Shown: positions 5,476 through 21,690 of the stretch, piece after piece
How positions within the stretch are numbered: the first letter of the stretch is position 1
Layout: the number at the start of each line of letters is the position of its first letter
From: Haladaptatus caseinilyticus
Lineage (GTDB): Archaea; Halobacteriota; Halobacteria; Halobacteriales; Haladaptataceae
DNA: 64,000 nt
Assembly (NCBI RefSeq): GCF_026248685.1
Contig: NZ_CP111036.1
Location: forward strand, 1,860,001-1,924,000
Direction: 5' to 3'
The notes under the pieces: generated by a model
Databases searched by the model: none
What the model saw: only the letters and a program-made list of their open reading frames with translations
What the model was told of the DNA's origin: nothing
Position numbers and translations under genes: made by a program

Positions 5476-5724
5476 GTGAAACCCACCATTCAACCCTCCC
5501 GCTTCAACGCGAAAGTTCGAATCCGACGAGAACGCGGGAGTCGGTAATCACGGCGTCTCCGGTCCATTCTCGGGGTCCGACCTTCGCTCGACAACCACTC
5601 CAACAATCGGTAGTACAGCCCTTGGCTAAGTAGTAGAATAACACTGTCGCCGATGGATACTCGTCCGCCGAGTAGTTCGAAACGATGTGCCCAGATTCGA
5701 GAGATGGTCGTAAGGCGAGATCGA

Positions 5725-8700
5725 TCAGTTTCCGGCTTTCACCGTCACTTGTACTTGCTCGCTCGTCCCGTTGGACTCGACTCGTAGGACGACCGTCCCC
5801 GACCGCATCCCCGTCAGCTCGCCCGTCGTCGGGTCGAACCGCGCGACGTATTCGTCGGCGGTTGCTTTCTGATCGTCTTCCCGCCCGTCGTTTTCGTCGT
5901 TCTCGTCGGCGTCCGCGACGAGCAGGTTCGAACTCCCATCCCAACGGACGGTTGCGGGATACCGAAGTGGGAACGTCAGGCCCGCCGCTTGCTCACCGGT
6001 TGCGATGACGGTTGCGGTCTCCCCGACGGCCAACGAATCGGGCGCGCCGAGGTCGATTCCCTCGAGCAGTGGTCGAACCTCGGCCCGAAGCCAATCCGTT
6101 CGTTCGACGGGGTCGTCGCTCCGTTCGATCCCTCCATCGATGCCGAACAGTCGCCATTCGCGGAATCCGCCGTTCGCCGCTGGTCCATAGGGGTCCTTTC
6201 CGCTGGTCCCGAGGACCGTGTAGGGAACGCCTTCGACGCGGCTGAAATCGACCGTCCCGGCGTGCCCAGCGACGTACGTCGCACCCTTCCCGTCGGACCG
6301 TCTTCGGAAGGCGGTCAGCCACTCCTCGATCAGTTCGGCCTCCATCCGGTCGCCGAGTTGGCTGTTGTCGGTCGGAAGCGGGTCACGGGTCGGATGATGG
6401 GCCATCACGACCACGTTGTTCACCGAATCGTCCGTAGCGGCTTCCTGCAGTCCCTGTCGGAGGTCGAACAGCTGTCGGAATTCCGCAGTTCGGAACGACC
6501 CGGTCGAGGAGTCGAGGAGGAAGAAACGAGTCCCGTCGTGGTCGAAAACATATCGTCGGTTTCCGAAGGCGGCATCGAAGTTCGATAGGTCGCTCGGTCC
6601 GACTCGCTCGTGGTTGCCGGGGATGTAGTAGACCGGAAGCGCGTCCCCGACTTCCTCGCGGAGAATGCGCTGTGCGAGGTCGTAGTCCCGAGCGTAACCC
6701 CTATCCACGAAATCCCCGACGATGACGAGAAATTCGGGGTCGGCCGCGACGATTTCACGAAGGGTTCGACGGGCCAATTCGACGGTCAGGCCGTCGGGAT
6801 TGTCGCCGACGAACTGACTGTCGGCCATCGCCGCGAACGTCCATCGGTCGTCGGAAAGCGTGTCGTTCCGGACGACCATCGGGTCCGGTTCGGTCTCCGA
6901 ATCGGGAACGGACACTGGCGGCGTCACCTTCACCGTAAGGTCATCGAACACGAGGCTGCCAGTGTACTGTTGGTCGGACGATGCTTCGACCGGATAGAGG
7001 TGCGAGAACTGCAGCGGATACTCCACACCCGCGGGAACGAGCGCTTCGACGTACTGCCACCCGGTCCAATCGACGCTGTACGTGAAGTTGAGGCGATGTG
7101 CGACGCCCGCGGCATCGTAAACGACGCCCCGGAGCCACGCGCCTCGTCCGTCACCGTGTACCCACACCCCGATACGCTGTGGTTCACCGGGGAGGTCGAT
7201 GTTCGATTCGGTTCTCGCATAGACCGCTCGTGTCGCAGTCGTCGTGCTGAAATCGTACTCCAATTCGAGGCCAGTCCCGTTTCGACCCTCGACGAACGAC
7301 ATCGACCCCTCGACCGCGCTCGGGTAGCGCGAAAAGTACCACGCCGAGGGGTCCTCGAAGCCGGACACCTGTTCGGTAGCCAGTCCGACTGATACCGGAA
7401 GATACGCCTCCTCGTTCAGCACGGAGACGGTGACGAGTGTCGAACCGTTCCTCCCCTTCGGCGTGACGCTGAAGACGCCTTCGTCGGTCGGTTCGATGGT
7501 TACGAGCGATTCGTCGTAGCTCAGGGAGATATCCCGTGGTTCGACCGGCGCGGTGTAACCCTGTGCATCGAACCCGAGCACCGCGAACGTCGAGGAATCG
7601 TCTGCCGCGAGACCGATCCGCTTCGTATCGGCCTCGATACGATCGAGATCGCCGAGAACGCGCAACTCGGTTGCACTTTTTGCCTGCCCTCTGTGCGCGA
7701 CTGCCTCACCGGAACCCGACTTCCGCGCGGTAACGATACCATCGTCGTCGAACCGTCCGAGCTTTCCGGGCACGGCCCGCCACTGTTTCGGCGTCGCTTC
7801 GACCGGTGTATACGTCTCGTCGTGTGCCATCGCTTCGAACTGGCGCGAGAGATTGGGGAAGACTCGGTGCGTGTTCTCGCCGTCGAGAACCGGTGTCACG
7901 TTGAATCCGTCCAGAGTGCCACTTCCCCCTTCGACCGCTAAGCCGAAGCCGTTGGACACCGGTCGCTCGCTGCCATCGGAGGGGTCATTTCGAACGCGAA
8001 CGCCCGCCTCGCCCGGTTCGCGAGCAACGAGGGTAGACGAGCCACCGCCGTCCAGATTGAGGGCGGCGCTCGCGCCGAGGTCTCGCATCGCTTCGCCGAG
8101 TTCACGGAGGCTCGCACCACGACTGTCGCGTTGGCGTCCGTCGACGACGAACAGGAACAGCGTCTTTCCGTCCGCGGAAACACCCGCTGCGGTTCGCGGT
8201 TCCAGTCGGTCATCATCGAGACTCTCGGGGATCTTTCCATCGATCACGAGCCGGGTGCCGCCACCGATGGCCACGTCCAACGGGCTGTTGGCGTCCGTTT
8301 TCGGCCCGTAGGTAACGGAAACCGAGTCGCCTTTCCAGAGTGCCGAGAGTGCGTCGGCACCCGCCCCCCGACCGGCGAGGACGTACGAATCGTCCGGAAT
8401 CGTGCCGTCGCCCGCCGGAGACGGCGACGACACGACCGTTTCGTTCCGAACGAGTACTTCCACGGTTCCGGGCCGCTCGACGTCGTTCCAGAGTGGCGTA
8501 TACAGTCCGATACCGCCGTCCGAGATCGTTGGTTGGTTCAGCGCCACGAGTGGATGGTTCCCGTTCGGTAGTTCCACATGCCCTTCAAGCACGACCTGTG
8601 CGATGCGACCAAGGCCATCCCGTTCGACGGCGACGGTACTCGTTCGGCCTGTCGCTGGCGACGACCGAATCTCGCCGTTACCGATTTCGGCTCCGATAGG

Positions 8701-9138
8701 TGAGTCGGTGTTCCCTATGTCGAAGAAATCGCCGTTGACGCCCGCCACTGCGCCCCTGTTTTCGGCGAGGGTCGAGACCGTCTCTCGACTCGTGACGCCG
8801 GGAGAGAGGAGTTGTCCGTCGTTCGATGCCTCGTCGAGCGCGACAGTGAGCAGGTCGCAATCGAGCCACCCGCGTTCGGTGAGACGGACGAACGACTGGT
8901 ACTCGATACCGGGTGCGACGGGTGTCGTTCCCGATTCGACGATTATCGCGTTTTCTGCCTCGCCAGCGAGCGTGGCGTCCTCGATTTCACCGAGGTCGCT
9001 CGTGAATCGACTTGCGTCTCCTGCCACCGCCGTCCCGACGCTTCCCGTCGCGGCCGCGCTCAGCGAGATCGCACCCGCAATGCCGTGGAGATAGTTTCGC
9101 CTCGACTCCGATACGTTTCGCTCCGGTGTTTCTGACAT
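5725..9138 (-). CDS. Exported phosphodiester glycosidase (NAGPA/DUF2233) plus calcineurin-like metallophosphoesterase
   Basis: 1137 aa from ATG 9138; a TTG two codons earlier is less likely because TTAATATTAAG at about 9160-9170 fits a TATA box for a leaderless start. The Tat signal is SRRNYLHG. The NAGPA/DUF2233 domain carries GVNGDFFD near residue 138 and NLDGGGSST near 362. Bacterial-Ig-like and carbohydrate-binding-like beta regions span about 400-740. The metallophosphoesterase domain (about 770-1020) has MADSQF, GDFVDRG, GNHE, MAHHPT and AGHAG metal ligands. A C-terminal Ig-like domain has an acidic Asp/Glu-rich insert. The architecture resembles B. subtilis YvnB. It probably cleaves phosphodiester-linked sugars of surface polymers and then releases phosphate; that sequence of steps is inference. 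Confidence 0.82.
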   Translation of the reverse strand: MSETPERNVSESRRNYLHGIAGAISLSAAATGSVGTAVAGDASRFTSDLGEIEDATLAGEAENAIIVESGTTPVAPGIEYQSFVRLTERGWLDCDLLTVALDEASNDGQLLSPGVTSRETVSTLAENRGAVAGVNGDFFDIGNTDSPIGAEIGNGEIRSSPATGRTSTVAVERDGLGRIAQVVLEGHVELPNGNHPLVALNQPTISDGGIGLYTPLWNDVERPGTVEVLVRNETVVSSPSPAGDGTIPDDSYVLAGRGAGADALSALWKGDSVSVTYGPKTDANSPLDVAIGGGTRLVIDGKIPESLDDDRLEPRTAAGVSADGKTLFLFVVDGRQRDSRGASLRELGEAMRDLGASAALNLDGGGSSTLVAREPGEAGVRVRNDPSDGSERPVSNGFGLAVEGGSGTLDGFNVTPVLDGENTHRVFPNLSRQFEAMAHDETYTPVEATPKQWRAVPGKLGRFDDDGIVTARKSGSGEAVAHRGQAKSATELRVLGDLDRIEADTKRIGLAADDSSTFAVLGFDAQGYTAPVEPRDISLSYDESLVTIEPTDEGVFSVTPKGRNGSTLVTVSVLNEEAYLPVSVGLATEQVSGFEDPSAWYFSRYPSAVEGSMSFVEGRNGTGLELEYDFSTTTATRAVYARTESNIDLPGEPQRIGVWVHGDGRGAWLRGVVYDAAGVAHRLNFTYSVDWTGWQYVEALVPAGVEYPLQFSHLYPVEASSDQQYTGSLVFDDLTVKVTPPVSVPDSETEPDPMVVRNDTLSDDRWTFAAMADSQFVGDNPDGLTVELARRTLREIVAADPEFLVIVGDFVDRGYARDYDLAQRILREEVGDALPVYYIPGNHERVGPSDLSNFDAAFGNRRYVFDHDGTRFFLLDSSTGSFRTAEFRQLFDLRQGLQEAATDDSVNNVVVMAHHPTRDPLPTDNSQLGDRMEAELIEEWLTAFRRRSDGKGATYVAGHAGTVDFSRVEGVPYTVLGTSGKDPYGPAANGGFREWRLFGIDGGIERSDDPVERTDWLRAEVRPLLEGIDLGAPDSLAVGETATVIATGEQAAGLTFPLRYPATVRWDGSSNLLVADADENDENDGREDDQKATADEYVARFDPTTGELTGMRSGTVVLRVESNGTSEQVQVTVKAGN

Positions 9139-9144
9139 CCGCAA

Positions 9145-10153: not shown

Positions 10154-10669
10154 CTATCGAACATATGATACGATCGTCACCTCGTACCAGCCTCGCTCGT
10201 TCGTCACGCGTAAGTCGAATGCCACAGCGAGGACGTGCGTTTCACCACCTCGATTTTGAACGACGACCCCGCGCTCCGCTTCGCATTCGCCGAACTGTCG
10301 ATTCGGCCCACTCGGGCAATTCTCCGATGTCCACTCCCGTGCTGCCGATCGATTGTACTCGACCTGATACACCGTTCCGGACTCGACCCGTGACGACCGT
10401 AAGGTGCCCAAATCCGATTCGAGGTCCGACCGAACCGATGAAACCGCGGCATCACGGTTGCGCCATCGATATGTCGCCGTAACGTCCCGCGTCGCATGGT
10501 GAACCGCCCGCGAGAGAACGCCGTCGGCGTTCTCGACCGGTTTGTCGTATTCGTCGCTCGCAGCCACATCACCGCTGTAGCCCAGTTGGAGGTACGCAAA
10601 AACGACTGGTGCGAGTGCCACGGCGACGATTGCCGCGGCCGCGAGCACGAGCTGTGCGCGATCCCTCAC
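10154..10669 (-). CDS. Pilin-like membrane-anchored protein (DUF7261-like)
   Basis: 171 aa. I choose GTG 10669, which overlaps the upstream stop as GTGA, over a TTG at 10684. It begins VRDRAQLVLAAAAIVAVALAP, a short positively charged stretch followed by one long hydrophobic helix, as in type IV pilin-like anchors. The rest is a beta-rich extracellular domain with two Cys (SENCPSG, FGECEAE) that could pair. It is the last gene of the seven-gene pilus/Tad-like operon. The role is probably a minor pilin or accessory surface subunit. The DUF number is from memory of the conserved haloarchaeal cluster and is not confirmed by a search. Confidence 0.7.
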   Translation of the reverse strand: MRDRAQLVLAAAAIVAVALAPVVFAYLQLGYSGDVAASDEYDKPVENADGVLSRAVHHATRDVTATYRWRNRDAAVSSVRSDLESDLGTLRSSRVESGTVYQVEYNRSAAREWTSENCPSGPNRQFGECEAERGVVVQNRGGETHVLAVAFDLRVTNERGWYEVTIVSYVR

Positions 10670-11070
10670 ACGTACCACACCCAAATCGTCACGTCACCGC
10701 TCGTCGTCGTCACCGTCGAAACACCGATCGGGATACCTGCCGGTTTCCGATAGCCAACGGCACCGTGGGGGGTTTCGACTCGGAACATGAGGTTGTCCGG
10801 CAAGATTCGATCCACACGCCGTTCCAGCGCGTCTCGTTCGCGGTCGAACGACTGGGGCGAGTCGATAATTTCGGCCAACCGAGTCGTCCCCTGATGTCGC
10901 GGCGGCTCGCTCGCCAGCACGGTTCCCGCATCTTCGGCGTACAGATCGAGCTGTGCACCACGAGTGTCGGGGGATGGAACGCCGAGTGCGAATCCCATTG
11001 CAACACCGAGAATAAATATAACGCCGATACCGGCTTCCACGACCGACAACGAGAGTTGTCCTCTATTCAT
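10666..11070 (-). CDS. Pilin-like protein (DUF7262-like)
   Basis: 134 aa from ATG 11070, overlapping the upstream gene's stop by 8 bases. It starts MNRGQLSLSVVEAGIGVIF, which has class III/type IV pilin character: a short polar stretch followed by a hydrophobic helix with an early Glu (VEAG, compare Glu+5 of pilins). The small domain after it contains VLASEPPRHQGTTRLAEII. Translationally coupled to both neighbours. Likely a minor pilin of the interrupted operon. Exact family unverified. Confidence 0.7.
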   Translation of the reverse strand: MNRGQLSLSVVEAGIGVIFILGVAMGFALGVPSPDTRGAQLDLYAEDAGTVLASEPPRHQGTTRLAEIIDSPQSFDRERDALERRVDRILPDNLMFRVETPHGAVGYRKPAGIPIGVSTVTTTSGDVTIWVWYV

Positions 11071-11767
11071 CGACCATCACCGCCAGCACGGCCTTTCGGG
11101 TGGTCGTCGGGTAGTACGTAACCCGGACGCTTCCGGTCGGAAGCGTGCTTCCGGACCCCTCGGTTTCGAACGCGAACCGAGTCGTTTCGAATCGCGAGAG
11201 CGATACCGAAAACGTCCCGTTGAGACCGGATTCGTTCCGCAGAACGATCCGACCGTTCGCTCGAATCGCACTCACGGTCGTTCCGGCCGGCGGTTGGACG
11301 ACCAGCGTCGCGTTCGACGTACGCCTCGGCAGAGTAAACCGAGGACTGCCGGGTGAAAGTCGTGGGGTTCGCGTCACTCGCTCTCGTCGCTCGACGAGTA
11401 CGACACGACGAATCGTCGGGCCACCGGTCGGATCACCCCGCTCGGCGAGGGTGGCATCGTTGAGGCCGATTCGCACGTCGTGAGTACCGATGGCCGGAAA
11501 CAGCACTTTCATCCGTTTCTCGTCGAGTCTGTCGAGCTCGGCCGCAACGAGGACGTTCGACCGAACCGTCACCGGGCTTTCGTCGCTTACCATTCGTTCG
11601 CTCACCGCAACGCCGACCTGCCGAGCCGTGGCGTCCCGCTTCGAGCTGAGAAAGGCCCTGTCGGCCATTCCCACGCTCAATCCGGTTACCATCGTCAGGA
11701 TGAGCAATGCAACCGCCAGTGCTGGGAGATTCATCTGCCCCCGCAGATTCGTCCGACACCCGGTCAT
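11063..11767 (-). CDS. Pilus-operon membrane-anchored protein (DUF7263-like)
   Basis: 234 aa from ATG 11767, overlapping the previous stop as ATGA. The N-terminus MTGCRTNLRGQMNLPALAVALLILTMV is a single N-terminal hydrophobic helix after RGQ, followed by a beta-rich outside domain (about 45-225) without Cys pairs. The RGQ/RAQ-then-helix pattern recurs in this gene's neighbours, suggesting related pseudo-pilin anchors. Probably part of the pilus tip or base complex; no enzymatic motif. Confidence 0.7.
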   Translation of the reverse strand: MTGCRTNLRGQMNLPALAVALLILTMVTGLSVGMADRAFLSSKRDATARQVGVAVSERMVSDESPVTVRSNVLVAAELDRLDEKRMKVLFPAIGTHDVRIGLNDATLAERGDPTGGPTIRRVVLVERRERVTRTPRLSPGSPRFTLPRRTSNATLVVQPPAGTTVSAIRANGRIVLRNESGLNGTFSVSLSRFETTRFAFETEGSGSTLPTGSVRVTYYPTTTRKAVLAVMVDE

Positions 11768-12219
11768 GACTCGTCTCCCCGTTCGAGCTTTACGACGAGA
11801 CCAGTCCGACCGCTGTAAATCACGACGACCGCTGGCTCGTAACTCGACCAGTTCCCACGCACCGTCGCGACGTGTGCTGGCACCGCGAGTCGCGTGCTCG
11901 TGTTCACACGTTCGTTCGGGTGAACCAGCGTGATATTTCGCCCCTTCGCTCGAACCTCGTATCCAGTTCCGCGAATCGTTTCCGGAAGTGTGACCCGCAT
12001 TCGACCACGAACGGCGGTTCCGTTCGCAGGAATTGCTTGCTGTATTCGCTCTGCAGCCTTGGAAAGGACGCGATCACCGACTTCCTCCCCAACTGCGGTT
12101 CGGTAGTCGGGAACGACCCCACCGTACAGTGTCGTCGTGATCAACCCGACGTATAACAGTACCAATCCCGCTTCGAGCGTCTTTCCGATAACCGGGCTTA
12201 CCGCTCGGTCGTCCATCAT
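11764..12219 (-). CDS. Pilin-like protein with RAVSPVIG N-terminus (DUF7266-like)
   Basis: 151 aa from ATG 12219 (a second ATG follows directly). The start MMDDRAVSPVIGKTLEAGLVLLYVGLI shows the RAVSPVIG motif of haloarchaeal type IV pilins, the prepilin peptidase recognition region ahead of the hydrophobic helix. The remaining 110 residues are a small beta domain. It overlaps the upstream gene by an ATGA junction and the downstream gene by ATGA. Of the five small genes this is the best candidate for a processed pilin subunit. Confidence 0.75.
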   Translation of the reverse strand: MMDDRAVSPVIGKTLEAGLVLLYVGLITTTLYGGVVPDYRTAVGEEVGDRVLSKAAERIQQAIPANGTAVRGRMRVTLPETIRGTGYEVRAKGRNITLVHPNERVNTSTRLAVPAHVATVRGNWSSYEPAVVVIYSGRTGLVVKLERGDES

Positions 12220-12926
12220 TGGACCTCCGTTCGCATATCGTGTACGACGAGATACGCGAACCGACGTCCGGGATATCGTGCGACGATGCTCGGAACGCCA
12301 TCGTCATCGAAGTCGCGCATCGTCGTCGTGGCGTTCTGGCGCTCGAAGTATCGACGCCACGCAGTCGCCGTTTCCGTCTCGATAGCAACCCGGTACGTCC
12401 CGTTGCCGAGCGTCGTTCGAGTGTGCGTGACGTTCGTTCGAACGAGCGCAGGCGTACCGGTCTTCGAAACGACGATCCGTTCCGATGCGTTGAGTTTCAC
12501 GGCACCGACGACCAACACGCCACCGTCACGGGATGCCGTTATCGGTGGGCGGGTATCTATCCGTGCGGAATCGTTCGTCCCGCGAACGACCGATCCGGCC
12601 ACGTACGCGATTCGCCTATCTCCCCCCGTAAAAACCAGCGCATCGACTGAGATCGCTCGGACGACACCCGATTCGTCCACTATGCGGAGTTCACGCTCCG
12701 CGGTTTCTAACCTCCCCTTCGAAAACGAAATTCTACCGCGATGGACCCCCGTCGATTCGACTGGGGAGAACGCACGGTTCATGTCCGTCGCGACGCGAGT
12801 CGCATCGGCAGTCGCAGCATTGCTGTCGACGACCAGACCGACACTCGCGGTCAACGACGCAAGCGAGAGCACAACCGTCCCGAGGAGGAGAGCGACACCG
12901 ACGACGTTCGACTGCGCACGCGTCAC
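12216..12926 (-). CDS. Pilin-like protein (DUF7289-like)
   Basis: 236 aa. Start chosen at GTG 12926, giving VTRAQSNVVGVALLLGTVVLS. This creates a GTGA overlap with the F-protein stop; a frame open further upstream (to 13034) would lie inside that gene. It has the AQSNVVGVALLLG pilin-like N-terminus, with one transmembrane helix, then an outside domain that includes VFTGGDRRIAY and WRRYFERQNATTT and ends FAYLVVHDMRTEVQ. Probably a pilin or minor pilin. Conserved neighbour of F-type pilus proteins in haloarchaea (from family knowledge). Confidence 0.72.
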   Translation of the reverse strand: MTRAQSNVVGVALLLGTVVLSLASLTASVGLVVDSNAATADATRVATDMNRAFSPVESTGVHRGRISFSKGRLETAERELRIVDESGVVRAISVDALVFTGGDRRIAYVAGSVVRGTNDSARIDTRPPITASRDGGVLVVGAVKLNASERIVVSKTGTPALVRTNVTHTRTTLGNGTYRVAIETETATAWRRYFERQNATTTMRDFDDDGVPSIVARYPGRRFAYLVVHDMRTEVQ

Positions 12927-14839
12927 AACATTCCCGCCCCCGAAAAGACGAAGTACGCGATACCGACGAGTGCGGCAGAGTGGAGCAGTGCCTCGTAGAA
13001 CCCTCGACCCGCATAGCCTGCGAACCAGCCACATGCAACCATCGTCGTTTGCGTGACGACGTAGAACCGCTGTCGGTCACGTGCCGGCTGCACCGCGTTC
13101 GGATCGAGTGCCAACCCCGCACTTGACGTGGACACCGCCGACAACTGCGAGAAACTATCAAGGACGTACGCGTTCACGGCGATCATGATGCCGACGACGA
13201 GCAGTGCGGTGGTCCACCCCACTACCACGTAAACCTGCATAGTAGATCGAAGCGCTTTCTTTTCGTGGTAGAGTCGGCCGATTTCGACCTGCAACGTATC
13301 GAACACGGTTTCGGTGTCGCCACCGACATCCAACGTTCCGGTGACGAGTCCGATCGTTTGGTTCGCCAACGGCGTACCGACGCTGGCGACGAATCGCGTC
13401 AGTGCATCCCGTCGAAGGTCGCCGTCGCGTGTAGTGAGGTTTGCATTGAACGCGAGGTCGTTCACGTCCTGTTGGAGCGCTCCGAGGTCGATGTCGCGCG
13501 CGACACGCTGAACTGCGGCGGAGAATGGCCGACCCAGTCCAACGTGGCCGGACACCGCATGGACGAAGTCCTTGATTTCGCGGTCTTTCGCATCATCGAG
13601 ACGTGACCGCCGGACGGAGACGAGACCGACGGGGAGCGCGAACGCGACGTAAGAGAGCAATATCGTATTGGCGGGGGAGTACTCGAGCATCCAGAGCAGA
13701 CCGGCGGCACAGAGTGCTATCGGAACCGCTAGTAGCACCGTGTTCGCGGGATTGACAAGAATCGTCGGGAACAGCTCGCCGACGCCTGTCGAACGGGCAT
13801 ATTCCGGTGATGACTGGTCGGCAGGGCGGAGCGACGCCATCACCGCTGCTGCACCCGCGCCGACGACGAGGATGAACCCACCACTGCCGTAGATGATGAC
13901 CGCCCGAATCGAAAGCCAGCTGAATGGTCGTGGAGCAGGTGCGGCCATGCTGGGCGCAAGCACGCTCATCACCGTGAGAACGATAACCAGAAGCGCTGGA
14001 ATGACCAGCAGAACGATGAACATCTCCGCGACCAGTTCGAGAAAGCCCTGTGCCTGGTCGCGCGAGCGTGATTGCCGATGGCTCAGCATCCGACTCTCCA
14101 TGCGAAGATACTGTTCGAGTGCATCAGGGCCCTGTTCTGCGTGTTCGCGGAATTTGAGCAAGAACGGTGCGAGCACGTCCCGCGACGGCGTATCCCTGGC
14201 GACGAGCCGGAGGCCGTCGTCGATACTTCCGGTCAGGGCGGACTTGTTCAACACCTTCCGAAACGCGACGGCGGTTTCGCCGTAGGATTCCTCCCTATCG
14301 GCGACTTTCCGGAGCATCGCCAACCGGTCGTCGCTGCCCGACGAAAGAGCACGGAGATACCGAACAGCACCGGGCAAGGTTCGGTCGATGTTCGTTCGGC
14401 GCGCGCTCGCCGACCAACTGAGATAAAGTCCGCCGAACCAAATCACCGTTCGCTTTCCGAGACTGGCACAGACGACTGCGATAGCGGTCGCGGCGTACGT
14501 TCGCTGCATATTTGGCACCCGAATCCTATCGAGCACCGGTAAACCGTCGTGGAGAAATGACACCATCCCCGCGAGAACGGTGTCGGGAACCGCGACTATC
14601 AGTAAAAATATCCAACAGAACGTCGCGAGGAAAACGACCCATGAAATACCATATATTCGGGAGAGAAACACGTCGAAACTGGCGTTCACGTCGGTGGCGC
14701 GGTAGCGTTTCCGATCGTGGTCGTGGCGAGTGTGGTCAGCGTGCCGCGAGAACAGCGCGTACAGCGCGCGGTCGAAGAGACTGAGAGAACTGGAACTGTA
14801 TTCGGTCGAATCGGTAGCGTGCGTTTCTGTGACCGTCAT
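12923..14839 (-). CDS. Type II/IV secretion system F-family membrane protein (TadC/PilC-like)
   Basis: 638 aa from ATG 14839, overlapping the ATPase stop as ATGA. It has two T2SSF-type cytoplasmic helical domains (about 150-260 and 410-530), each followed by hydrophobic helices, for a total of around nine membrane segments: near 60-80, 110-135, 265-290, 310-335, 355-395, 550-570 and 600-635. The double T2SSF layout is the usual haloarchaeal form of the pilus platform protein. It would work with the ATPase encoded just upstream. That ATPase gene is broken, so this platform is probably without a motor unless the element excises. Confidence 0.85.
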   Translation of the reverse strand: MTVTETHATDSTEYSSSSLSLFDRALYALFSRHADHTRHDHDRKRYRATDVNASFDVFLSRIYGISWVVFLATFCWIFLLIVAVPDTVLAGMVSFLHDGLPVLDRIRVPNMQRTYAATAIAVVCASLGKRTVIWFGGLYLSWSASARRTNIDRTLPGAVRYLRALSSGSDDRLAMLRKVADREESYGETAVAFRKVLNKSALTGSIDDGLRLVARDTPSRDVLAPFLLKFREHAEQGPDALEQYLRMESRMLSHRQSRSRDQAQGFLELVAEMFIVLLVIPALLVIVLTVMSVLAPSMAAPAPRPFSWLSIRAVIIYGSGGFILVVGAGAAAVMASLRPADQSSPEYARSTGVGELFPTILVNPANTVLLAVPIALCAAGLLWMLEYSPANTILLSYVAFALPVGLVSVRRSRLDDAKDREIKDFVHAVSGHVGLGRPFSAAVQRVARDIDLGALQQDVNDLAFNANLTTRDGDLRRDALTRFVASVGTPLANQTIGLVTGTLDVGGDTETVFDTLQVEIGRLYHEKKALRSTMQVYVVVGWTTALLVVGIMIAVNAYVLDSFSQLSAVSTSSAGLALDPNAVQPARDRQRFYVVTQTTMVACGWFAGYAGRGFYEALLHSAALVGIAYFVFSGAGML

Positions 14840-16404
14840 CCTCGCACCTCTCGCGAAACACGTTCCACCGTCGCCGCCTCGTTGTTCTGCAAGTCAGCAA
14901 GGAACGAAAACAGCTCCTCGAAGTCCGTCATCCCCTCCCGCTCTAAATACTGCACGTAGCCGTGTTTGCGGTGGAACTCGGCTTCGATATCTTCGATACT
15001 TCTGTCGGTACGGTTGGCGAGCCGGTGGAAGAACTGAAATCCGAGTTCGCGCTCTTCGTCGCCGAGTTGTGGATGATCGTACTCGATCTGGAAGGTTCCG
15101 TCGTGGTCACGCCACACGATGGTGTTCCAGTGAATCGTGGTCTCATCCTTGTGAATTACTCCACAACGGCCGTCTAAATCGGCGAACTCGTCTTCGCTCA
15201 CCAACTCCACGATTTCGCCGACGTATCGCTCGCCATCTACGTATCGGGGGAAAACAACGAGGTCGATCTCCCGCAAGAGGTAGGACGGAAGGCCCTGCTC
15301 TATGACGCGGTTGACGAGTTTCTCGATGTTTTCGGCGTGTGTCGTCCCGAGGAGTCCATGGCCCGTGTTCAGCGATTCTGCGAACGTCTGGAACGAGGCA
15401 GGCGAGTTGATTTCGGCGATGACCTCCACGTCCGGATTGAGATAGTTACATTCGGTCATCAAATCGGCCATCGTCACCCGTTTGTAGTCGCTCTCGTGGT
15501 CACGAGTTGTAAGCGAAACGCCGGTTTCGTGCGGTAAACGATCCTCACGCGACCCTTCGTCGATACTGATTGGGCGGTCGCGGTACGGGATGAACGGCAT
15601 ATGCGCGTTCATCAACGTCGTCTTTCCGACTCCCGTTTGTCCGGAAAACAGCGCGACGCCGTGGTGTTCGTACAACTGCCAGAGCAAGGTGACGATTTCC
15701 GTGGAGAGGCTGCCGCCGTCGAGCAGATCGACGGGCGTCATCGTGTCGGGCGCCTGTTTTCGAATCGAGATATGAGGGCCGCCCTCCGAAATAACGGGGA
15801 GGGCAACCGCACAGCGGATCGTCTCCTCGTCCGGCACGCCGTCGGGCGAGAGGTTCACCTTCGCACTCGGATTGCTCGCGTTGAGTTCCACGCCGTCGGA
15901 GGCAGCCATCTGTGTAACGACGTTGACGAACGCCGATTCGTCCTCGAAGGCGAGGTTGGTCGGAATGCGCTCGCCGTGACCGATAGCACGACCGCGCGGA
16001 ACGACTTTGATTCGCTCGCCGACGCGATTGGCTTCGATGTCCTCCAACAGACCATCCCGAATCGGGATGGTCAACTTGCCGTGCCCGACGTAGTCGCGGA
16101 GCACGTAATAAACCAGATCCGAAAGTCGGTCGTCCGAAAACCGGTGATCGACTGGTGGTATGGCGAGGTCGTACTCGGCGAGCGCGGTTCGGACACGATA
16201 CTGTACCGCATCGAGCCACGCTCGAGTATTTCGTGCCGTGAGCCGCCGTGAAAGGAACTGCTGGGCACGTTCGCGGACGAACGCCGAACGGTCGTCAACG
16301 ACGCCCCCGACGTTCGTCTCCCAGATGCGTTCCTTACATTCCTCGATGAGTCGGTCGTCGTCCGGCAGAAGGTTGGGTTCGATGACGGCGTACTTCGTCG
16401 CGAA
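14836..16404 (-). pseudogene. C-terminal part of pilus/secretion ATPase, severed by the integrated element
   Basis: The frame from 16404 to 14836 carries the ATPase core: Walker A SGQTGVGKTT, DPDVEV-type Asp/Glu region with VEVIAEINSPASF (Walker B/catalytic Glu), then TGHGLLGTTHAEN and LLREIDLVVFPRYV, as in FlaI/TadA/PilB-type secretion ATPases. It joins in frame at FATK|YAVIEPNLL to the N-terminal part at 21689-22336. The open frame continues 150 bases into the element as far as a TTG at 16554, but those 50 codons are not family-like and contain no ATG, so translation from there is doubtful. Intact, the protein would be 733 aa, including 518 residues after the junction. The stop overlaps the next gene as ATGA. 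Confidence 0.88.
16392..16404. repeat. Attachment site, left (13-bp core)
   Basis: Sequence acttcgtcgcgaa, identical to 21691-21703. The core has internal dyad symmetry (TTCG-tcg-CGAA). Read on the minus strand it encodes Phe-Ala-Thr-Lys plus the first base of Tyr in the ATPase frame. Located 179 bases from the recombinase start. Confidence 0.85.
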
Positions 16405-16582
16405 ATGCCCGGTAAACGTTTCACGACGAAATTGGTGAAAAAAGAAAGCAAGCGGCAACCCGGTGAGACGAAAATGTTGGAGAATGTGAGTGAATTTGCC
16501 GGACGATGTTGCCGGTACAGGGGTGAGAATAGGCGCATGTTGCCGATAACCCAATGCTCATACCACAACCCATAGACCCAAT

Positions 16583-17725
16583 ATGGTTAATAAGGCTACT
16601 GACGACGCTCATAATCAAACCACGGCGGCTTTCGCAGGAAACACAGATATGAACGCTCAAACACCTGCGAACGGAGTACAGCACGAGGTACCGATTCGGC
16701 AAGCATTCACCGACTTTATAAGGGATATGGAGTCACAAATGGCGTATGCCACTGTGATGAACAAAAAGAACGTTTGTAGGCAGTTTACTGAGTGGGTCGA
16801 AGACTTAGAGGACTGTACGCTGGCTACACTGTCGGGGTACCACCTCGGTCAGTTCAGTGCGTACCTGCGTGACGATAAAGACTTGAAGGATATTACACGC
16901 AAGCAGTACCTCTGTGAAGTCCGTACGTTCCTAACATGGTGCGAGAACAAGGAGATTGCACGAACGGGGATTAGCGACCGTATAGAGCTACCACAGCTTA
17001 CCAAAGACGACATTCGTTCAGACGCGAAAATCAAACCCGACCGGGTACGGTCAGTTCTCGCGTATCTGGATAAGTACCGTCATGCTCGAAAAGAACACGT
17101 GTGGATACACTTGCTATTCAAAACAGGCGCGAGAATGTCTGCAATTCGTCATTTGGACTTGCGGCACGTCCATCTTGACCGGGGGCGTCCATATCTCGAA
17201 TTAACCCACCGTCCCGAGAAAGGAATGCCACTTAAGAACGGTAACAAGGACGCGAAGAACGCTGAGAGACCAATCCTCATATCTGAGGATACCGCAACCC
17301 TGCTACGCGAGTATATCCAACACAACCGACACAACGTAACCGAAACAATCGAGAAAGAGGATGGTCAGACGGTCGAACTAAACCCATTATTGACAACAAG
17401 ATACGGTCGATGGTCGCATTCCTCCACCCAAGACGTAGTGTATCAGTGGACGTGTCCTGCGGCAACTGGAGGAGAGTGTGAGGTACACGGCACGGAAATA
17501 CCTTCCCGTGACGACGCTCACGACTGCCGCAAGTACGAAGGACACAGTGTTTCGCCACATAAACTGCGTGCCGCAAGTATCGTTCATCACCGGAACCGTG
17601 GTATAAGTGTCGAAACTGTGTCTGAAAAGATGAATGTGAGTATCCCGGTTATTAAAACACACTATGATAAACCTTCGACATCAGACCGGCTTGACCGACA
17701 GGCTGGAATCATAGATAAACTGTAG
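16583..17725 (+). CDS. Tyrosine recombinase/integrase of the element
   Basis: 380 aa (alternative ATG at residue 23). SAM-like core-binding domain at about 35-125 (AFTDFIRDMESQM, TRKQYLCEVRTFLTWCE). Catalytic domain at about 150-365 with Arg184 in GARMSAIRHLDL, HKLR (His326, Arg329) and Tyr361 in VIKTHYDKPS. The usual GH motif before the Tyr is replaced by SEKMNVS. An inserted Cys/His knuckle (Cys291, Cys299, His302, Cys315) precedes box II, as seen in other haloarchaeal integrases. It should recombine the 13-bp att cores for integration and excision. The gene is intact and attP lies outside it, unlike SSV1-type integrases that split on integration. Confidence 0.92.
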   Translation: MVNKATDDAHNQTTAAFAGNTDMNAQTPANGVQHEVPIRQAFTDFIRDMESQMAYATVMNKKNVCRQFTEWVEDLEDCTLATLSGYHLGQFSAYLRDDKDLKDITRKQYLCEVRTFLTWCENKEIARTGISDRIELPQLTKDDIRSDAKIKPDRVRSVLAYLDKYRHARKEHVWIHLLFKTGARMSAIRHLDLRHVHLDRGRPYLELTHRPEKGMPLKNGNKDAKNAERPILISEDTATLLREYIQHNRHNVTETIEKEDGQTVELNPLLTTRYGRWSHSSTQDVVYQWTCPAATGGECEVHGTEIPSRDDAHDCRKYEGHSVSPHKLRAASIVHHRNRGISVETVSEKMNVSIPVIKTHYDKPSTSDRLDRQAGIIDKL

Positions 17726-17795
17726 TCTCTCGTCCTACCCACCCTGCCTATGTTCGTTACTTAAACCGAAGCTATCTCTTATTACTTAAACTAAC

Positions 17796-17814
17796 CGAAA
17801 GACTTAAATAGTAG
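17796..17814 (+). promoter_or_regulatory. Promoter of small-gene operon (BRE/TATA)
   Basis: CGAAAGACTTAAATAGTAG matches the archaeal layout of a purine-rich BRE followed by a TTAAATA TATA box. The same 18-bp string with one change recurs at 19257-19274 before rep. If used, the transcript would start near 17825-17830 and have a leader of about 260 bases. Confidence 0.55.
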
Positions 17815-17889
17815 TAGGTATATTGTCTGTGTGTAGGATATATAAGTCCTACAATCAATGTTGTTCGACATATCCCTCAATTTGGGATA

Positions 17890-17918
17890 GTAGAGCGGTC
17901 AATCCGCTCGCCCTCTAC
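17890..17918 (+). other. Nested hairpins in the leader of the small-gene operon
   Basis: GAGCGG (17893-17898) pairs with CCGCTC (17904-17909) across the loop TCAAT. Alternatively GTAGAG (17890-17895) can pair with CTCTAC (17913-17918). The two stems share bases and so are mutually exclusive. It could be a regulatory RNA leader or just a DNA-binding palindrome. Confidence 0.4.
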
Positions 17919-18087
17919 GGGTTTTGAACGACAATCTGACGAATCTCGAAAGTTCATCTTTCGGAATTGTTACGTTATCGTTGCGGGAGCTAATCCCCCG
18001 TATTAATAGGTTAGCGGCGGTTTCCGGCAGGTTCCCGACCTTCTTGAAATTAACCTGTCATCTTAACAATCATATAGGTGATATATT

Positions 18088-18258
18088 ATGTCAAACAAAA
18101 TGCCAATCTGGTTCGAGCCAGAACAGCGAGAAGATGTTTTTGAAGTTATTTCCAAGCGTTTCGGCGAACGGTCGAAGAATGGAGTAGCTGACGGTCGTGC
18201 AGTTAGAGAAATTATTAAAGAATACGACGAGATTGTGGGAGGTGAGAGATATGACTGA
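18088..18258 (+). CDS. Small element protein (56 aa), unknown
   Basis: Starts MSNKMPIWFEPEQREDVFE and ends EYDEIVGGERYD; predicted almost fully helical and charged. Its stop overlaps the next gene's ATG by 8 bases, and the Shine-Dalgarno of the next gene lies inside its end, so the pair looks translationally coupled. It may be a DNA-binding or regulatory peptide. No family recognised. Confidence 0.65.
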   Translation: MSNKMPIWFEPEQREDVFEVISKRFGERSKNGVADGRAVREIIKEYDEIVGGERYD

Positions 18259-18412
18259 GATTTTAAATGTAGAACTGACAGATGAGCAAAAGCGACACAT
18301 CCAAAGACGCAAGCAGGAGTCGGGAGATTCCATGAACACGACAGTGTTCTTACAAAATGAATATATCCCGCAACTCATTGAGCAGGATATGGAGAGTGAC
18401 GACGATGGGTAA
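18251..18412 (+). CDS. Small element protein (53 aa), possible ribbon-helix-helix
   Basis: The ATG at 18251 is preceded by a strong Shine-Dalgarno GGGAGGTGAG (from about 18237), which decides this start over an in-frame ATG at 18197. MTEILNVELTDEQKRHIQRR suggests a short beta strand followed by two helices, an RHH-like order, but there is no firm match. It overlaps the next gene by 8 bases. Probably a regulator of the element. Confidence 0.62.
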   Translation: MTEILNVELTDEQKRHIQRRKQESGDSMNTTVFLQNEYIPQLIEQDMESDDDG

Positions 18413-18716
18413 TGAATCTGTCACTATCGCCATTGACGACGAAACCGGCGAGCGACTTCGAGCAGTAAAGGAACTGCTGTTTGACGACGACGATAGTCAC
18501 TCATATCAAGAAACAGTCAAACGACTTGCCACCCTTCGACTTGAGGAGGAGGAGCAACGAGTGCAGGCCATATCGGAAGCACAAGAGCGTATGAGCGATA
18601 GTTTCGGCGATTCTGTTGAGAACTACACATCTTCGGATGAATGCCGCTCACAGGACAGTGAGGTAGCTTCTAAGCAAGCTGAAGTGGCGGATAAGATGTT
18701 TAACAAAGGTGACTAA
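18405..18716 (+). CDS. Small acidic element protein (103 aa)
   Basis: Begins MGNESVTIAIDDETGERLRA; a strand then helix at the N-terminus could be RHH/antitoxin-like (residues 5-45). A long Glu/Gln-rich helix (EEEEQRVQAISEAQERM) and an acidic polar tail follow. It overlaps the upstream gene and is followed after 2 bases by the next, so all four small genes form one operon. Function unknown. Confidence 0.65.
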   Translation: MGNESVTIAIDDETGERLRAVKELLFDDDDSHSYQETVKRLATLRLEEEEQRVQAISEAQERMSDSFGDSVENYTSSDECRSQDSEVASKQAEVADKMFNKGD

Positions 18717-18718
18717 GC

Positions 18719-19003
18719 ATGCAGGGACAAAGTGTAGGTACAATCACTGTTCCGATGGATGTGTATAATGCCCTAAGACGAGCAGACGCTAATGGAGGGT
18801 TAGAGCATCTGTCAGATAGATATGAAAAAGAAATTGCTAAGTCCGATATGCAATTGTGGGTTCTCCAAGCAATAGCTGAGAAATCTAAAGAACTTGAGGG
18901 AATTGACGCAAGTGGTGACGTTATGGCAGACGTAGACGGTACGATTATCGAAATCGGTCAAGACCGTGACGACGAAGGTAACTTCGTTTCCCGATTCCGT
19001 TAA
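18719..19003 (+). CDS. Small element protein (94 aa), unknown
   Basis: MQGQSVGTITVPMDVYNALRRADANG, then a helical middle (EKEIAKSDMQLWVLQAIAEK), then an acidic beta-like end (ADVDGTIIEIGQDRDDEGN). Last gene of the four-gene operon. The N-terminal TITVPMDVYNALRRA string is again strand-then-helix as in small DNA-binding proteins. Not recognised further. Confidence 0.62.
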   Translation: MQGQSVGTITVPMDVYNALRRADANGGLEHLSDRYEKEIAKSDMQLWVLQAIAEKSKELEGIDASGDVMADVDGTIIEIGQDRDDEGNFVSRFR

Positions 19004-19443
19004 ACTCACGCCAGCTAAGTCCTTAGACCACTGTTTAGGGTTTTATTTTCGGTTCAATCTCCCATTGTTTAGGAGCTTCAGTTTGTTTTTCTCCGATTCG
19101 TAAGAATCCACGCCATCTAAGGCTTCAGCCTGACGTTCTCACTTCGGCTAAAATCGGCTTCATGAGCTAATTCCCAGCATAGCGATATGGCGCATATCTT
19201 ATCATTTTGGCAAGTATTTTTGTTGAAACAGTAAATATATCTAACATACGGCAACGGAAAGACTTAAGTAGTAGGAGCTACAATACTATTTAAAGATAAC
19301 CAATACCGAAAATCATGAATGGCGGTCGTCCAGTCAGTCGAACAACCTTACTCGTTCCCACGCGAGCTACAGTATAAACAACTCACTCATTATACTTAAA
19401 GGTTTCGATTTTCTATCGGTTGTCATTCATGTAGGATATAAAC
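19004..19443 (+). other. Repeat-rich region upstream of rep, candidate replication origin
   Basis: 440 gene-free, AT-rich bases directly before an HUH Rep. Direct repeats: CACGCCAKCTAAG at 19007-19019 and 19109-19121; CAYTGTTTAGG at 19029-19039 and 19063-19073. A second promoter copy lies at 19257-19274. CATGAATG occurs at 19314 and 19443 with its inverse CATTCATG at 19424. Clustered short repeats beside rep are the usual layout of a plasmid origin and Rep operator; the nick site is not identified. Confidence 0.45.
19257..19274 (+). promoter_or_regulatory. Promoter copy upstream of rep
   Basis: GAAAGACTTAAGTAGTAG, 17 of 18 bases identical to 17797-17814. Spacing to the rep ATG is about 170 bases. 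The shared promoter string suggests joint control of rep and the small-gene operon. Confidence 0.5.
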
Positions 19444-19450
19444 ATGAATG
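19424..19450 (+). promoter_or_regulatory. Inverted repeat overlapping rep start codon
   Basis: CATTCATG (19424-19431) and CATGAATG (19443-19450) form 8-bp arms over an 11-base spacer that contains TAGGATATAAA. The right arm includes the ATG at 19444. A further CATGAATGG lies at 19314-19322. The TGTAGGATATA string (19430-19440) also occurs at 17832-17842. A likely operator for autoregulation or a Rep binding site; inferred only. Confidence 0.5.
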
Positions 19451-20814
19451 GAATACAAACATCTCAATCTACGACTTTAAGTACTACACAAACAACCGAC
19501 AACGCGGCCCCGGAGCGCGCCTGTGTTCACTCCTTTGGCGAGGATGGAACAGATGACAAGAGGATTATACGTCTTGTAGCAGACTGTGCTGGCTATCTCG
19601 GCAAAGAGGCTGGCGATACTGTACCTGTAAACGAGGTAAGACTACAAGCAGAAGCGAACGGCTACACCGAAGACGAGTTTTATCAAATCCTTGATGAATC
19701 GGGGGCTATCGGCAAGGATAGATTCGTCGTACCTGAACGTGATGGGTCTATCTTTGGTGAGCTTTGGGAACCACATACGACATTCTTCGAGAAAGCACAG
19801 GCAGACGCACGAGGAGAACCACAGGCACAGTATCGGGAGAATACACCACGAAAGTATCCGAACTGCCTACCACCGGCTAATCCTTATAAAATCACTTCGC
19901 GCCTAAACGGATACACTTGGGTTCAGGCAAGTAACGGCTATCTCAAGATGGATAAAGACGTGCACACTCAACAATCTGTCAAAAGACGCCATGGCCGAAC
20001 CAAGGATGTTGAACGATACTGCATAGAGAACTTCGAGAATCTAACTACAGTCTGGCTTACATTCAAGATACCCGAAAAGACAGTTGGCGGAAGCTGGCGG
20101 AATCCGATTGCACATATTCGGGAGTTTGAGCAAGGATATGACTCGGTTTACAGTAGTCTCTATCATCGTCTCAAGACACGCGACGACTACGAGTATGCAG
20201 GTGTCAGATTGTTCGCTTCCCGTCGAACTGGATACACGCATATGCACGTCGCTCTTTGGGTAAACGCGGAGCTATCCCGCGAATACTTTGAGCCTGTAGT
20301 TGACAACTTTGTGAACAATGCACAGACTGCAACGATGGAAGATAACCCGTATGACAAAGCCATTCGTATTCGTAATGTCAGTGATTCGGATGTTCAATTA
20401 GAGCAATCGGGCAATACGGACGTTGACAGAAAACGAGGAGCTACGACGAAACTCCCATCCGAAGTAAGTGGAAATCTTGATGTACTCAATAGGTATGAGG
20501 ATACGACCGATTCACCTTCTGCCGAACTGCTACACGCTACTGCGCTCTTTGAGGCTGGCAAGAAGGCATGGAATCCCTTCGGGAGCTTTAACGAGATTGC
20601 TGATGGGATGAATACCTTCACGCGGAAGGCAGAAAGGGATGCGAAAAACTCGGACTGCCTACCACCGTCTGATCTTTCTAAAGAGATTAGCAGTGATTGT
20701 TTGATAGACTACTGTAATCTGAATGACTTGCTCTCACAAATCTCCCCGGCCAGCATACCACCGGCTAATGTTTCAAAGCCTATTCAGTCCTCTAAACTCT
20801 CGCCCTTCGACTGA
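19444..20814 (+). CDS. HUH-type replication initiator (Rep) of the element
   Basis: 456 aa. The N-terminal 45-95 looks like a winged-helix segment (RIIRLVADCAGYLG). The core has TTVWLTFKIPEK (motif I region) and the HUH metal site GYTHMHVALWV (His266, His268). The later segment, RYEDTTD then ATALFEAGKKAWNPFGSF, resembles the haloarchaeal rolling-circle Rep region that normally follows the catalytic Tyr; Tyr351 is the candidate nucleophile. It should nick the origin to start rolling-circle replication. Preceded by a repeat-rich 440-bp region. The last 31 bases overlap the convergent regulator gene. The polar C-terminus (about 395-456) is variable. Confidence 0.8.
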   Translation: MNGIQTSQSTTLSTTQTTDNAAPERACVHSFGEDGTDDKRIIRLVADCAGYLGKEAGDTVPVNEVRLQAEANGYTEDEFYQILDESGAIGKDRFVVPERDGSIFGELWEPHTTFFEKAQADARGEPQAQYRENTPRKYPNCLPPANPYKITSRLNGYTWVQASNGYLKMDKDVHTQQSVKRRHGRTKDVERYCIENFENLTTVWLTFKIPEKTVGGSWRNPIAHIREFEQGYDSVYSSLYHRLKTRDDYEYAGVRLFASRRTGYTHMHVALWVNAELSREYFEPVVDNFVNNAQTATMEDNPYDKAIRIRNVSDSDVQLEQSGNTDVDRKRGATTKLPSEVSGNLDVLNRYEDTTDSPSAELLHATALFEAGKKAWNPFGSFNEIADGMNTFTRKAERDAKNSDCLPPSDLSKEISSDCLIDYCNLNDLLSQISPASIPPANVSKPIQSSKLSPFD

Positions 20815-21155
20815 CCCCCATCATTTCGTATGGAGCTTTGGGTAGTATTGTATTCTCGCGCAAGAGCGAGATGTTCGCCTAACGGTTCGTGCTCAAAGTA
20901 TCGAACCATCTCGGTACGAGGGTCGTATTCAACGACTCCGTTATCCCGCAACTTCGGAAGATGAACATGCCGTATCTCCGTCTCAATCGACTGGCGCGGG
21001 GTTTCTACAACTTCCGAGACTTCAGAGATAAGCGTCTCAAGCGAGACTGCCGAATCGTCGGTTTGGTGCAGTTCGTTAAGGATGCACCGACGTTGGTCGT
21101 TTCTCAAAAGGTCAAAGGTAGTGTTTAGGTCAAGATATAATGATTCTTTACTCAT
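20784..21155 (-). CDS. DUF7344-type winged-helix regulator of the element
   Basis: 123 aa from ATG 21155. FDLLRNDQRRCILNELHQ followed by SLETLISEVSEVVE and HVHLPKLRDNGVVEYDPRTE is the DUF7344/ArsR-like winged-helix pattern common in haloarchaeal genomes and viruses. Convergent with rep, overlapping its end by 31 bases. A good candidate for the repressor that keeps the element quiet, but no operator assignment is possible by eye. Confidence 0.8.
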   Translation of the reverse strand: MSKESLYLDLNTTFDLLRNDQRRCILNELHQTDDSAVSLETLISEVSEVVETPRQSIETEIRHVHLPKLRDNGVVEYDPRTEMVRYFEHEPLGEHLALAREYNTTQSSIRNDGGQSKGESLED

Positions 21156-21690
21156 TGGGCAGACAGATGGGAGTCACGGGGATAAGTGATGGGGATACAT
21201 TCAGTTCTATAGCTACCCCATTTGTGGCACGTTCACCCCCGGAGTTGCGTTGTCAAAACACCCTTGCAAACCGCTCATTAATATTCTTATCAGAAGTCTA
21301 ACTTTTCCTTGATTCTGGGCACTATCTGCTCACTCGTATTTTTTCGAGGCAGACCAGATAATATACGCTTAGCTCAAGGGGAGGTATGGTACTCATTAAC
21401 AAAGGACAAATACTCTACGCTCAACAGGGTGGTCTCTAAAGTTCGCTGGGGGTTGGTTGGTTGGTGCTTGCAAATGCAGGCTATAAAAATTCTTTGATTC
21501 GTCCGATGAAATAAATTCCTCTTGCTCGAAAGAGGGTGCTTGCATTAGCAAACTTCAAATGGGGACTGAGGTGATAATTATGCTGGTAGATTATCTAATC
21601 TAATCCCATGCACAATAGTTAAGTTCTTGCCGCCCGTTGCTACTTTTACGAAAGCCCACACGGTAGGTACGTGTGCGCGTCAGTCCTATC
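21156..21690. other. Element right-end non-coding stretch
   Basis: About 535 AT-rich bases between the regulator start and the right attachment repeat. It must hold the promoter of the minus-strand regulator, and perhaps integrase or excision-factor arm sites. A 62-codon plus frame at 21309-21497 lacks any recognisable start context or domain. No clear repeat array found. Confidence 0.45.

Follow-up and report, generated by a model that had tools for sequence, protein, structure and literature searches.

A putative plasmid-like element inserted in the pilus ATPase gene pilB1 of Haladaptatus caseinilyticus and the hybrid reading frame at its edge

An interrupted pilus ATPase gene and its described counterparts

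In Listeria, the host gene comK harbours a prophage that is actively excised. Archaeal elements integrate into protein-coding genes as well, as described for the virus BJ1, which is found in the gene encoding HMG-CoA reductase (PMC8371274), and a transposon in the pilB1 gene (hvo_0620) of Haloferax volcanii is described to reduce adhesion, while a pilB1-C1 deletion of this organism is rescued by pilB3-C3 in trans (PMC6491452). Here we describe the natural interruption of the orthologous gene in Haladaptatus caseinilyticus, which is located in a window of 64,000 nucleotides (contig NZ_CP111036.1, positions 1,860,001 to 1,924,000) and is split at codon ~215 of 733 by an element lying between two exact copies of a 13-bp repeat (Table 1).

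The element resembles those of the BJ1 type in its tyrosine recombinase and in an attachment site within a protein-coding gene (PMC8371274), but differs from them in its target, the pilus ATPase gene, and in a 5.3-kb cargo with a DUF1424-type replication protein (Rep) and without a virion gene recognised by Pfam or PHROG. The same Rep family occurs in small plasmids of the DUF1424 type from haloarchaea, whose records span 1.6-2.5 kb, although in four such records, none of which was among the best 20 of 23 records matching the integrase, the Rep proteins are 23-35% identical across 21-43% of the protein. As in the transposon mutant of hvo_0620, the interrupted gene is followed by pilC1 and a pilin gene; however, the interruption is due here to a natural site-specific element and there to a laboratory transposon, and the reduced adhesion is that of the H. 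volcanii mutant (PMC6491452). Integration into pilB1 is not reported in the titles and abstract openings of the open-licence papers listed by literature searches, which constitutes weak evidence of novelty.

Fusing the flanks once through the repeat restored a frame of 734 codons with the terminal stop only, and the rejoined product showed 90.3% identity over 730 residues, with no gap, to the orthologue of Haladaptatus litoreus (L094). The proteins of the relatives continue with GTDSFATKYAVLEPNLL across the break point without interruption, and the front half reads GTDSFATK before a TGA that directly follows the repeat core. With the core duplicated, one copy directly precedes the stop of the front half and the other holds the beginning of the rear half. 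No stop codon or frameshift is present within either half, and the rear half matches Pfam T2SSE (E 2.4e-19) and retains the Walker A motif GQTGVGKTT, the intactness of which had been stated in an annotation made earlier from the DNA letters and their translations (the sequence-only reading). The core occurs at both ends of the element and in one copy in the empty site; it contains the short dyad TTCG-TCG-CGAA (read directly), is identical in three orthologues (L094, L095 and L043), deviates by one mismatch in four others (L038, L040, L041 and L042) and by one to three mismatches in seven more distant ones. These data clearly indicate that the interruption of pilB1 is beyond chance and that it represents a real, well-defined site-specific insertion inside this gene. 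Identities of pilB1 to three named Haladaptatus species amount to 93%, 92% and 89%, and the gene is unbroken in the jointly listed six genomes of the same genus (G031, G090, G152, G161, G166 and G190) and one of the same family (G142).

The GC content is 0.39-0.50 in the element interior versus roughly 0.55-0.64 in the flanking genes. A plasmid wrongly joined to the chromosome during assembly would agree with the plasmid resemblance of the Rep gene and with the single copy of the element in the assembly; such an artefact is nevertheless extremely unlikely, as contig 1 spans 2.65 Mb and both junctions fall exactly at the shared 13-bp core, as recombination predicts.

The split ATPase was linked to hvo_0620 by part of a published primer for this gene (PMC6491452). 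The 15 nt of the primer that cover the hvo_0620 start exactly match the orthologue start in loci of three Haloferax species (L103, L111 and L113); of the other two Haloferax loci, L104 starts with MPTQG although its DNA does not match exactly, and L102 lacks this start. Together with the overlapping pilC1-type gene and the pilin-like genes that follow it, this orthology identifies the split gene, as judged by homology and gene order, as one of the PilB1 type (FlaI-like). The first of the five small downstream genes (DUF7289) has a match to a pilin N-terminus that falls below the cut-off.

Table 1. Features of the H. caseinilyticus window and breaks of pilB1 in the genomes surveyed
Feature	Position	Strand	Remarks
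Five small genes downstream of pilC1, same operon	10154..12920	-	DUF7289, DUF7266, DUF7263, DUF7262, DUF7261
pilC1-type membrane platform gene	12923..14839	-	T2SSF; FlaJ models below cut-off; 4-nt overlap with pilB1 stop
Rear-half hybrid frame	14836-16554	-	572 codons, TTG start, open reading frame scan
Native C-terminal pilB1 fragment	14836..16404	-	522 codons, FATK included; Walker A within a FlaI-like core
att core copy 2, ACTTCGTCGCGAA	16392..16404		exact 13-bp direct repeat
50 foreign codons joined in frame to the C-terminal fragment	16405..16554	-	probably non-coding element-end DNA
Inserted element, 5.3 kb	16405..21690	+	between repeats; one copy in assembled genome
Three TTGCCG motifs (16496, 16509, 16540)	16496..16545		inside the 50 foreign codons; a fourth at 21627, other end
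Tyrosine recombinase, 380 aa, frame open	16583..17725	+	Pfam and PHROG integrase families, candidate active-site residues
TATA-like TTATTA	16588..16593	-	1 of 5 minus-strand TTWTWA matches in element
Three small ORFs (71, 119, 94 aa), overlapping or adjacent	18197..19003	+	no Pfam family
DUF1424 putative replication protein, 456 aa	19444..20814	+	PF07232, E 5.5e-10, above cut-off
DUF7344 protein, 123 aa	20784..21155	-	PF24035, E 1.5e-14
N-terminal pilB1 fragment, 215 aa	21689..22336	-	L038 orthologue, residues 7-218: 87%
att core copy 1, ACTTCGTCGCGAA	21691..21703		exact 13-bp direct repeat
pilB1 of G000 (this window)	break at codon 215		site-specific element
pilB1 of G059, G082, G147, G208	break at P-loop codons, about 473-495 of reference
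pilB1 of G020, G131	break after codon 436		HamA and HamB (Hachiman defence) replace pilB1 end and pilC1 start
pilB1 of G033	cut after codon 563 (L074:9025)	-
pilB1 of G114, G183	L068:18279-18285, L075:2579-2582		frameshifts
pilB1 of G156			front part lost

Gene content of the element and a proposed course of insertion

The recombinase scores just above the cut-off of Pfam Phage_int_SAM_5 and just below that of Phage_integrase, with the XerD/XerA models falling below their cut-offs. The active site of tyrosine recombinases follows the pattern R...HxxR...Y, which is matched by the candidate residues R184, HKLR 326-329 and HY 360-361 (Y361). The Rep protein carries HMH at 266-268, which we take to be the His-x-His motif of rolling-circle Rep proteins. 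Among the remaining genes, the first of the three small open reading frames (ORFs) has one weak match to a PHROG of unknown function, and the DUF7344 protein is perhaps a regulator. The six element frames contain no internal stops. According to this composition, with a tyrosine recombinase and a DUF1424 Rep, the element is classified as a putative plasmid-like integrative element.

The integrase matches listed across 243 genomes did not exceed 37% identity, the query aside, and a peptide-pattern search with the integrase gave no match in genome contigs or viral contigs. The Rep protein had no match among viral contigs or phages and only distant matches elsewhere. A suicidal integrase of the SSV type was ruled out, as the integrase gene is whole and the core at 16392-16404 lies outside it, and a tRNA target was dismissed since ARAGORN detected no tRNA gene in the window.

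The following course of events would account for these features. The tyrosine recombinase of the element would have inserted it at the 13-bp site within pilB1, thereby duplicating the core. It would have disrupted the pilus ATPase and separated pilC1, as well as the pilin-like genes behind it, from the native promoter. As far as the sequence can tell, pilB1 is disrupted, probably with a polar effect on the downstream genes. The 50 open codons next to the rear half would be the end of the element, open by accident and subject to weak, accidental expression at most. As both the core and the recombinase are intact, pilB1 could be recovered through precise excision. Taken as a whole, we consider this explanation, a site-specific insertion that disrupted pilB1 and left an incidental hybrid frame, to be very probable.

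Like the comK prophage, the element interrupts a host gene whose restoration by excision could follow; unlike that prophage, it is archaeal, not viral as far as seen, and known here from sequence alone. A reversible switch, in which the element is excised under some conditions in the manner of an active prophage and the pilus is restored, would fit the intact core repeats, the seamless rejoined gene and a recombinase whose frame is open and whose catalytic residues are as expected. However, any recent integration would look alike, and no insertion at this codon was found in the other genomes examined, so that we regard such a switch as unlikely.

The hybrid frame and the remaining motor core

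The sequence-only reading had drawn attention to the frame of the rear half, which continues for 150 bases past the repeat and thus comprises 50 codons inside the element. This extension was confirmed, and the foreign part indeed contains no ATG, nor any GTG. The statement that TTG 16554 is the only start had to be corrected, since a second TTG is present in the foreign part at 16458 and further candidates follow in frame in the native part (GTG 16104, TTG 16074 and TTG 16047, with the first ATG at 15909).

The length of the foreign extension is not beyond chance, because a point is preceded by 50 or more open codons with a frequency of 0.19 at actual positions of the element and of 0.29 in a first-order Markov model of its end; another reading frame at the junction stays open for 60 codons. 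The composition of the 50 codons is non-haloarchaeal, with one acidic residue (1/50 versus 93/522 in the native part) and a GC3 of 0.44 versus 0.72. All four plus-strand copies of TTGCCG in the element sit near its ends, and in 100,000 trials four random places were never all located within 165 bases of an end, the motif having been picked post hoc; the reverse complement occurs six times, one copy being at 16453, and most of these copies lie in the interior of the element. The TTGCCG motifs are possible arm sites of the integrase, and the 50-codon stretch probably represents recombinase-binding arm DNA.

Whether the rear half might be expressed was considered with respect to the known features of haloarchaeal transcripts. 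In H. volcanii, leaderless transcripts are described to make up 72% of the protein-coding ones, with GUG starts in 6-9% of the leaderless transcripts (PMC4983044). In a study cited in that paper, initiation was abolished when AUG was changed to GUG or UUG in the one leaderless transcript concerned, a kind of single test which the citing authors describe as not generalisable, and leaders of ~10 nt belong to a length class reported as rare in H. volcanii (PMC4983044). The TATA-like TTATTA at 16593 on the minus strand makes weak transcription into the rear fragment possible by sequence, and a transcript seeded there would have a leader of an estimated ~10 nt before TTG 16554.

The position of the break was compared with the domain structure of the ATPase. 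In the L094 protein, the FlaI-like homology starts at residue 205 (the NCBIfam model NF058587 covers 205-601 and scores far under its equivalog cut-off). The AlphaFold model of this protein is only moderately confident (mean pLDDT 70.4, pTM 0.49) and comprises a confident N-domain at ~30-170, a link at 209-211 that is predicted with low confidence and a strand at 212-218; archaeal GspE and FlaI rank first among its PDB matches. As the cut lies after residue 215 and the 13-bp core is present in both halves, the break falls at the margin of the motor core.

A hybrid motor, in which an element promoter and TTG 16554 or 16458 give rise to a chimeric ATPase that keeps pilus assembly going, is therefore conceivable from this model. 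It would be consistent with a frame that is open up to TTG 16554, with the TTATTA box, with the known motor part being kept in a rear half without stop or frameshift and with the cut at the start of the FlaI-like core. We nevertheless consider it very unlikely, as its foreign starts are TTG codons only, of the kind that abolished initiation in the single leaderless test, its short leader would fall in the rare class (PMC4983044), the foreign codons are nearly devoid of acidic residues and low in GC3, and an N-domain of ~200 residues, alignable in 34/34 orthologues, would be lost. Translation of the hybrid is hence predicted to be unlikely, and the frame is most likely a by-product of the insertion, a silent gene fragment. 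With respect to the sequence-only reading, its view that the ATPase core is probably untranslated agrees with the split by the element and the lack of a normal start, loss of function being likelier, apart from the weak transcription that may arise at TTATTA. Its suggestion of a chimeric protein retains the TATA-like box in its favour, but a selected hybrid motor is poorly supported by composition, chance openness and motifs. As a single case, the locus is an ordinary insertional split, which warns against taking an open hybrid frame for a gene.

Several observations weigh against the preferred explanation, insertion with disruption of pilB1 and an incidental frame. The cut at the edge of the FlaI-like core leaves the rear half as nearly a whole motor, and the TTATTA box lies 39 nt upstream of TTG 16554. 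Neither a second nor a free copy of the element was found in the assembly, and the searches made yielded no close relative of the element. Furthermore, the rear half carries 14 private amino-acid changes in 429 positions, the highest count of seven sequences (4-10 in the others), including one V to D exchange at a column that is invariant in 34 aligned orthologues (V499 of A1).

Dispensability of pilB1 and its breaks in other haloarchaea

The number of private amino-acid changes in the front half (3/154) lies within the range of six relatives (0-4), and private silent changes amount to 8/53 in the front half (relatives 1-9) and 20/149 in the rear half (relatives 6-22). With the taxon set of pilC1, the counts are 8/404 for the rear half versus 4-40 in the relatives and 17/338 for pilC1 versus 5-46. 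YN00 estimates for three pairs gave dS near 1 and dN/dS of 0.08-0.10. These counts may fit either a recent insertion without clear relaxation or a slight early decay.

For a comparison of the gene across the order, 243 genomes were surveyed, of which 116 contain a pilB1 match at E up to 1e-60. The gene is broken in 11 of the 116, at several codons and by unrelated causes (Table 1). A fragment at a contig end (G160) was left out of this count, and partial alignments with open frames of ~700 codons or more were counted as intact without individual reading. As a control, matches at E up to 1e-60 to the host's paralogue of the PilB3 type are present in 236/243 genomes, some being other paralogues. 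The matches listed, which stop short of weaker and possibly broken copies, are all almost full-length, one of them containing an internal TGA, so that this control is suggestive at most.

Given this record, pilB1 might already have been dispensable or costly in the lineage, so that the element landed in a gene that was being lost, which is a possible though doubtful explanation. It would be in line with the 11 varied breaks, with the lack of a high-scoring pilB1 match in G102, G181, G186 and the incomplete G171 among 28 genomes of the family, with four further T2SSE-type ATPase genes in the host and with the described absence of pilB1C1 from Haloferax gibbonsii LR2-5 (PMC7921747). The private amino-acid changes slightly above those of the six relatives point in the same direction, but the excess is small, the silent changes are high too, and no clear relaxation appears with the pilC1 taxon set.

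The P-loop codons were hit repeatedly. In L066, L067 and L070, two neighbouring recombinase-like genes form a pair within the inserts at this site, and the second gene matches Phage_integrase in L067 and L070; the pair was not found in the stretch fetched at pilB1 of G208 (L071). Breaks at the P-loop codons are also present in Halorubrum vacuolatum (L166) and H. halophilum (L167), with the recombinase pair in L167 (3969 onward). The elements with paired recombinases lie directly behind the P-loop codons (GKTTLMNA) in haloarchaea of different families (L070:6624-14707, L067:2044-8449 and L167, with remnants in L201 and L224), and the ends of the L070 element share TCTACTAGTAGA, with TGAACGCT duplicated on both sides. 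One recombinase of the pair was detected in 30/243 genomes and adjoins the P-loop codons of pilB1 in five of these 30 (L066, L067, L070, L201 from G102 and L224 from G013), L201 and L224 being remnants. The stretches surrounding the pair genes in the remaining genomes gave no pilB1 match, some of them ending at contig ends; in L074 (G033), remnants of the pair are located ~8 kb from the cut.

Occurrence of the integrase family of the window at the other breaks was rejected, as a profile of 30 integrases detected none among the ORFs of at least 80 aa in L066-L077. Since this family was not detected there and a different recombinase pair is present at the readable P-loop inserts, several element families, and not a single one, are involved. 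A similar cut to that of G033 is present in Halorubrum alkaliphilum at codon 562 (..NTG; L162:7098), followed by similar sequence, and codons 562-563 are perhaps a further insertion site. The frameshifts in G114 and G183 suggest a repeated loss of this pilus.

Breaks of the pilus-motor gene thus recur across families of haloarchaea, differing in the codon affected and in the element involved, so that a connection of pilus loss with mobile elements becomes testable. This wider pattern of breaks is a more interesting lead than the hybrid frame. A further-reaching view is that unrelated mobile elements of haloarchaea land preferentially in pilB1, because an interrupted pilus assembly is of benefit to element or host (for instance by blocking pilus-dependent entry), and that the interruption is reversible, the elements serving as on/off switches of the PilB1 pilus; it is regarded as quite unlikely.

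The Hachiman genes that replace parts of pilB1 and pilC1 are located at L072:2070-5880 and L073:14500-18305, in two genomes of one genus. Elsewhere in the H. caseinilyticus window, two minus-strand frames combine unrelated domains: positions 3943-5493 encode a thioredoxin/DsbA-like domain and a formate/nitrite transporter domain in a single frame, and a frame of 1139 codons at 5725-9144 encodes a phosphodiester glycosidase domain together with a calcineurin-like phosphoesterase domain.

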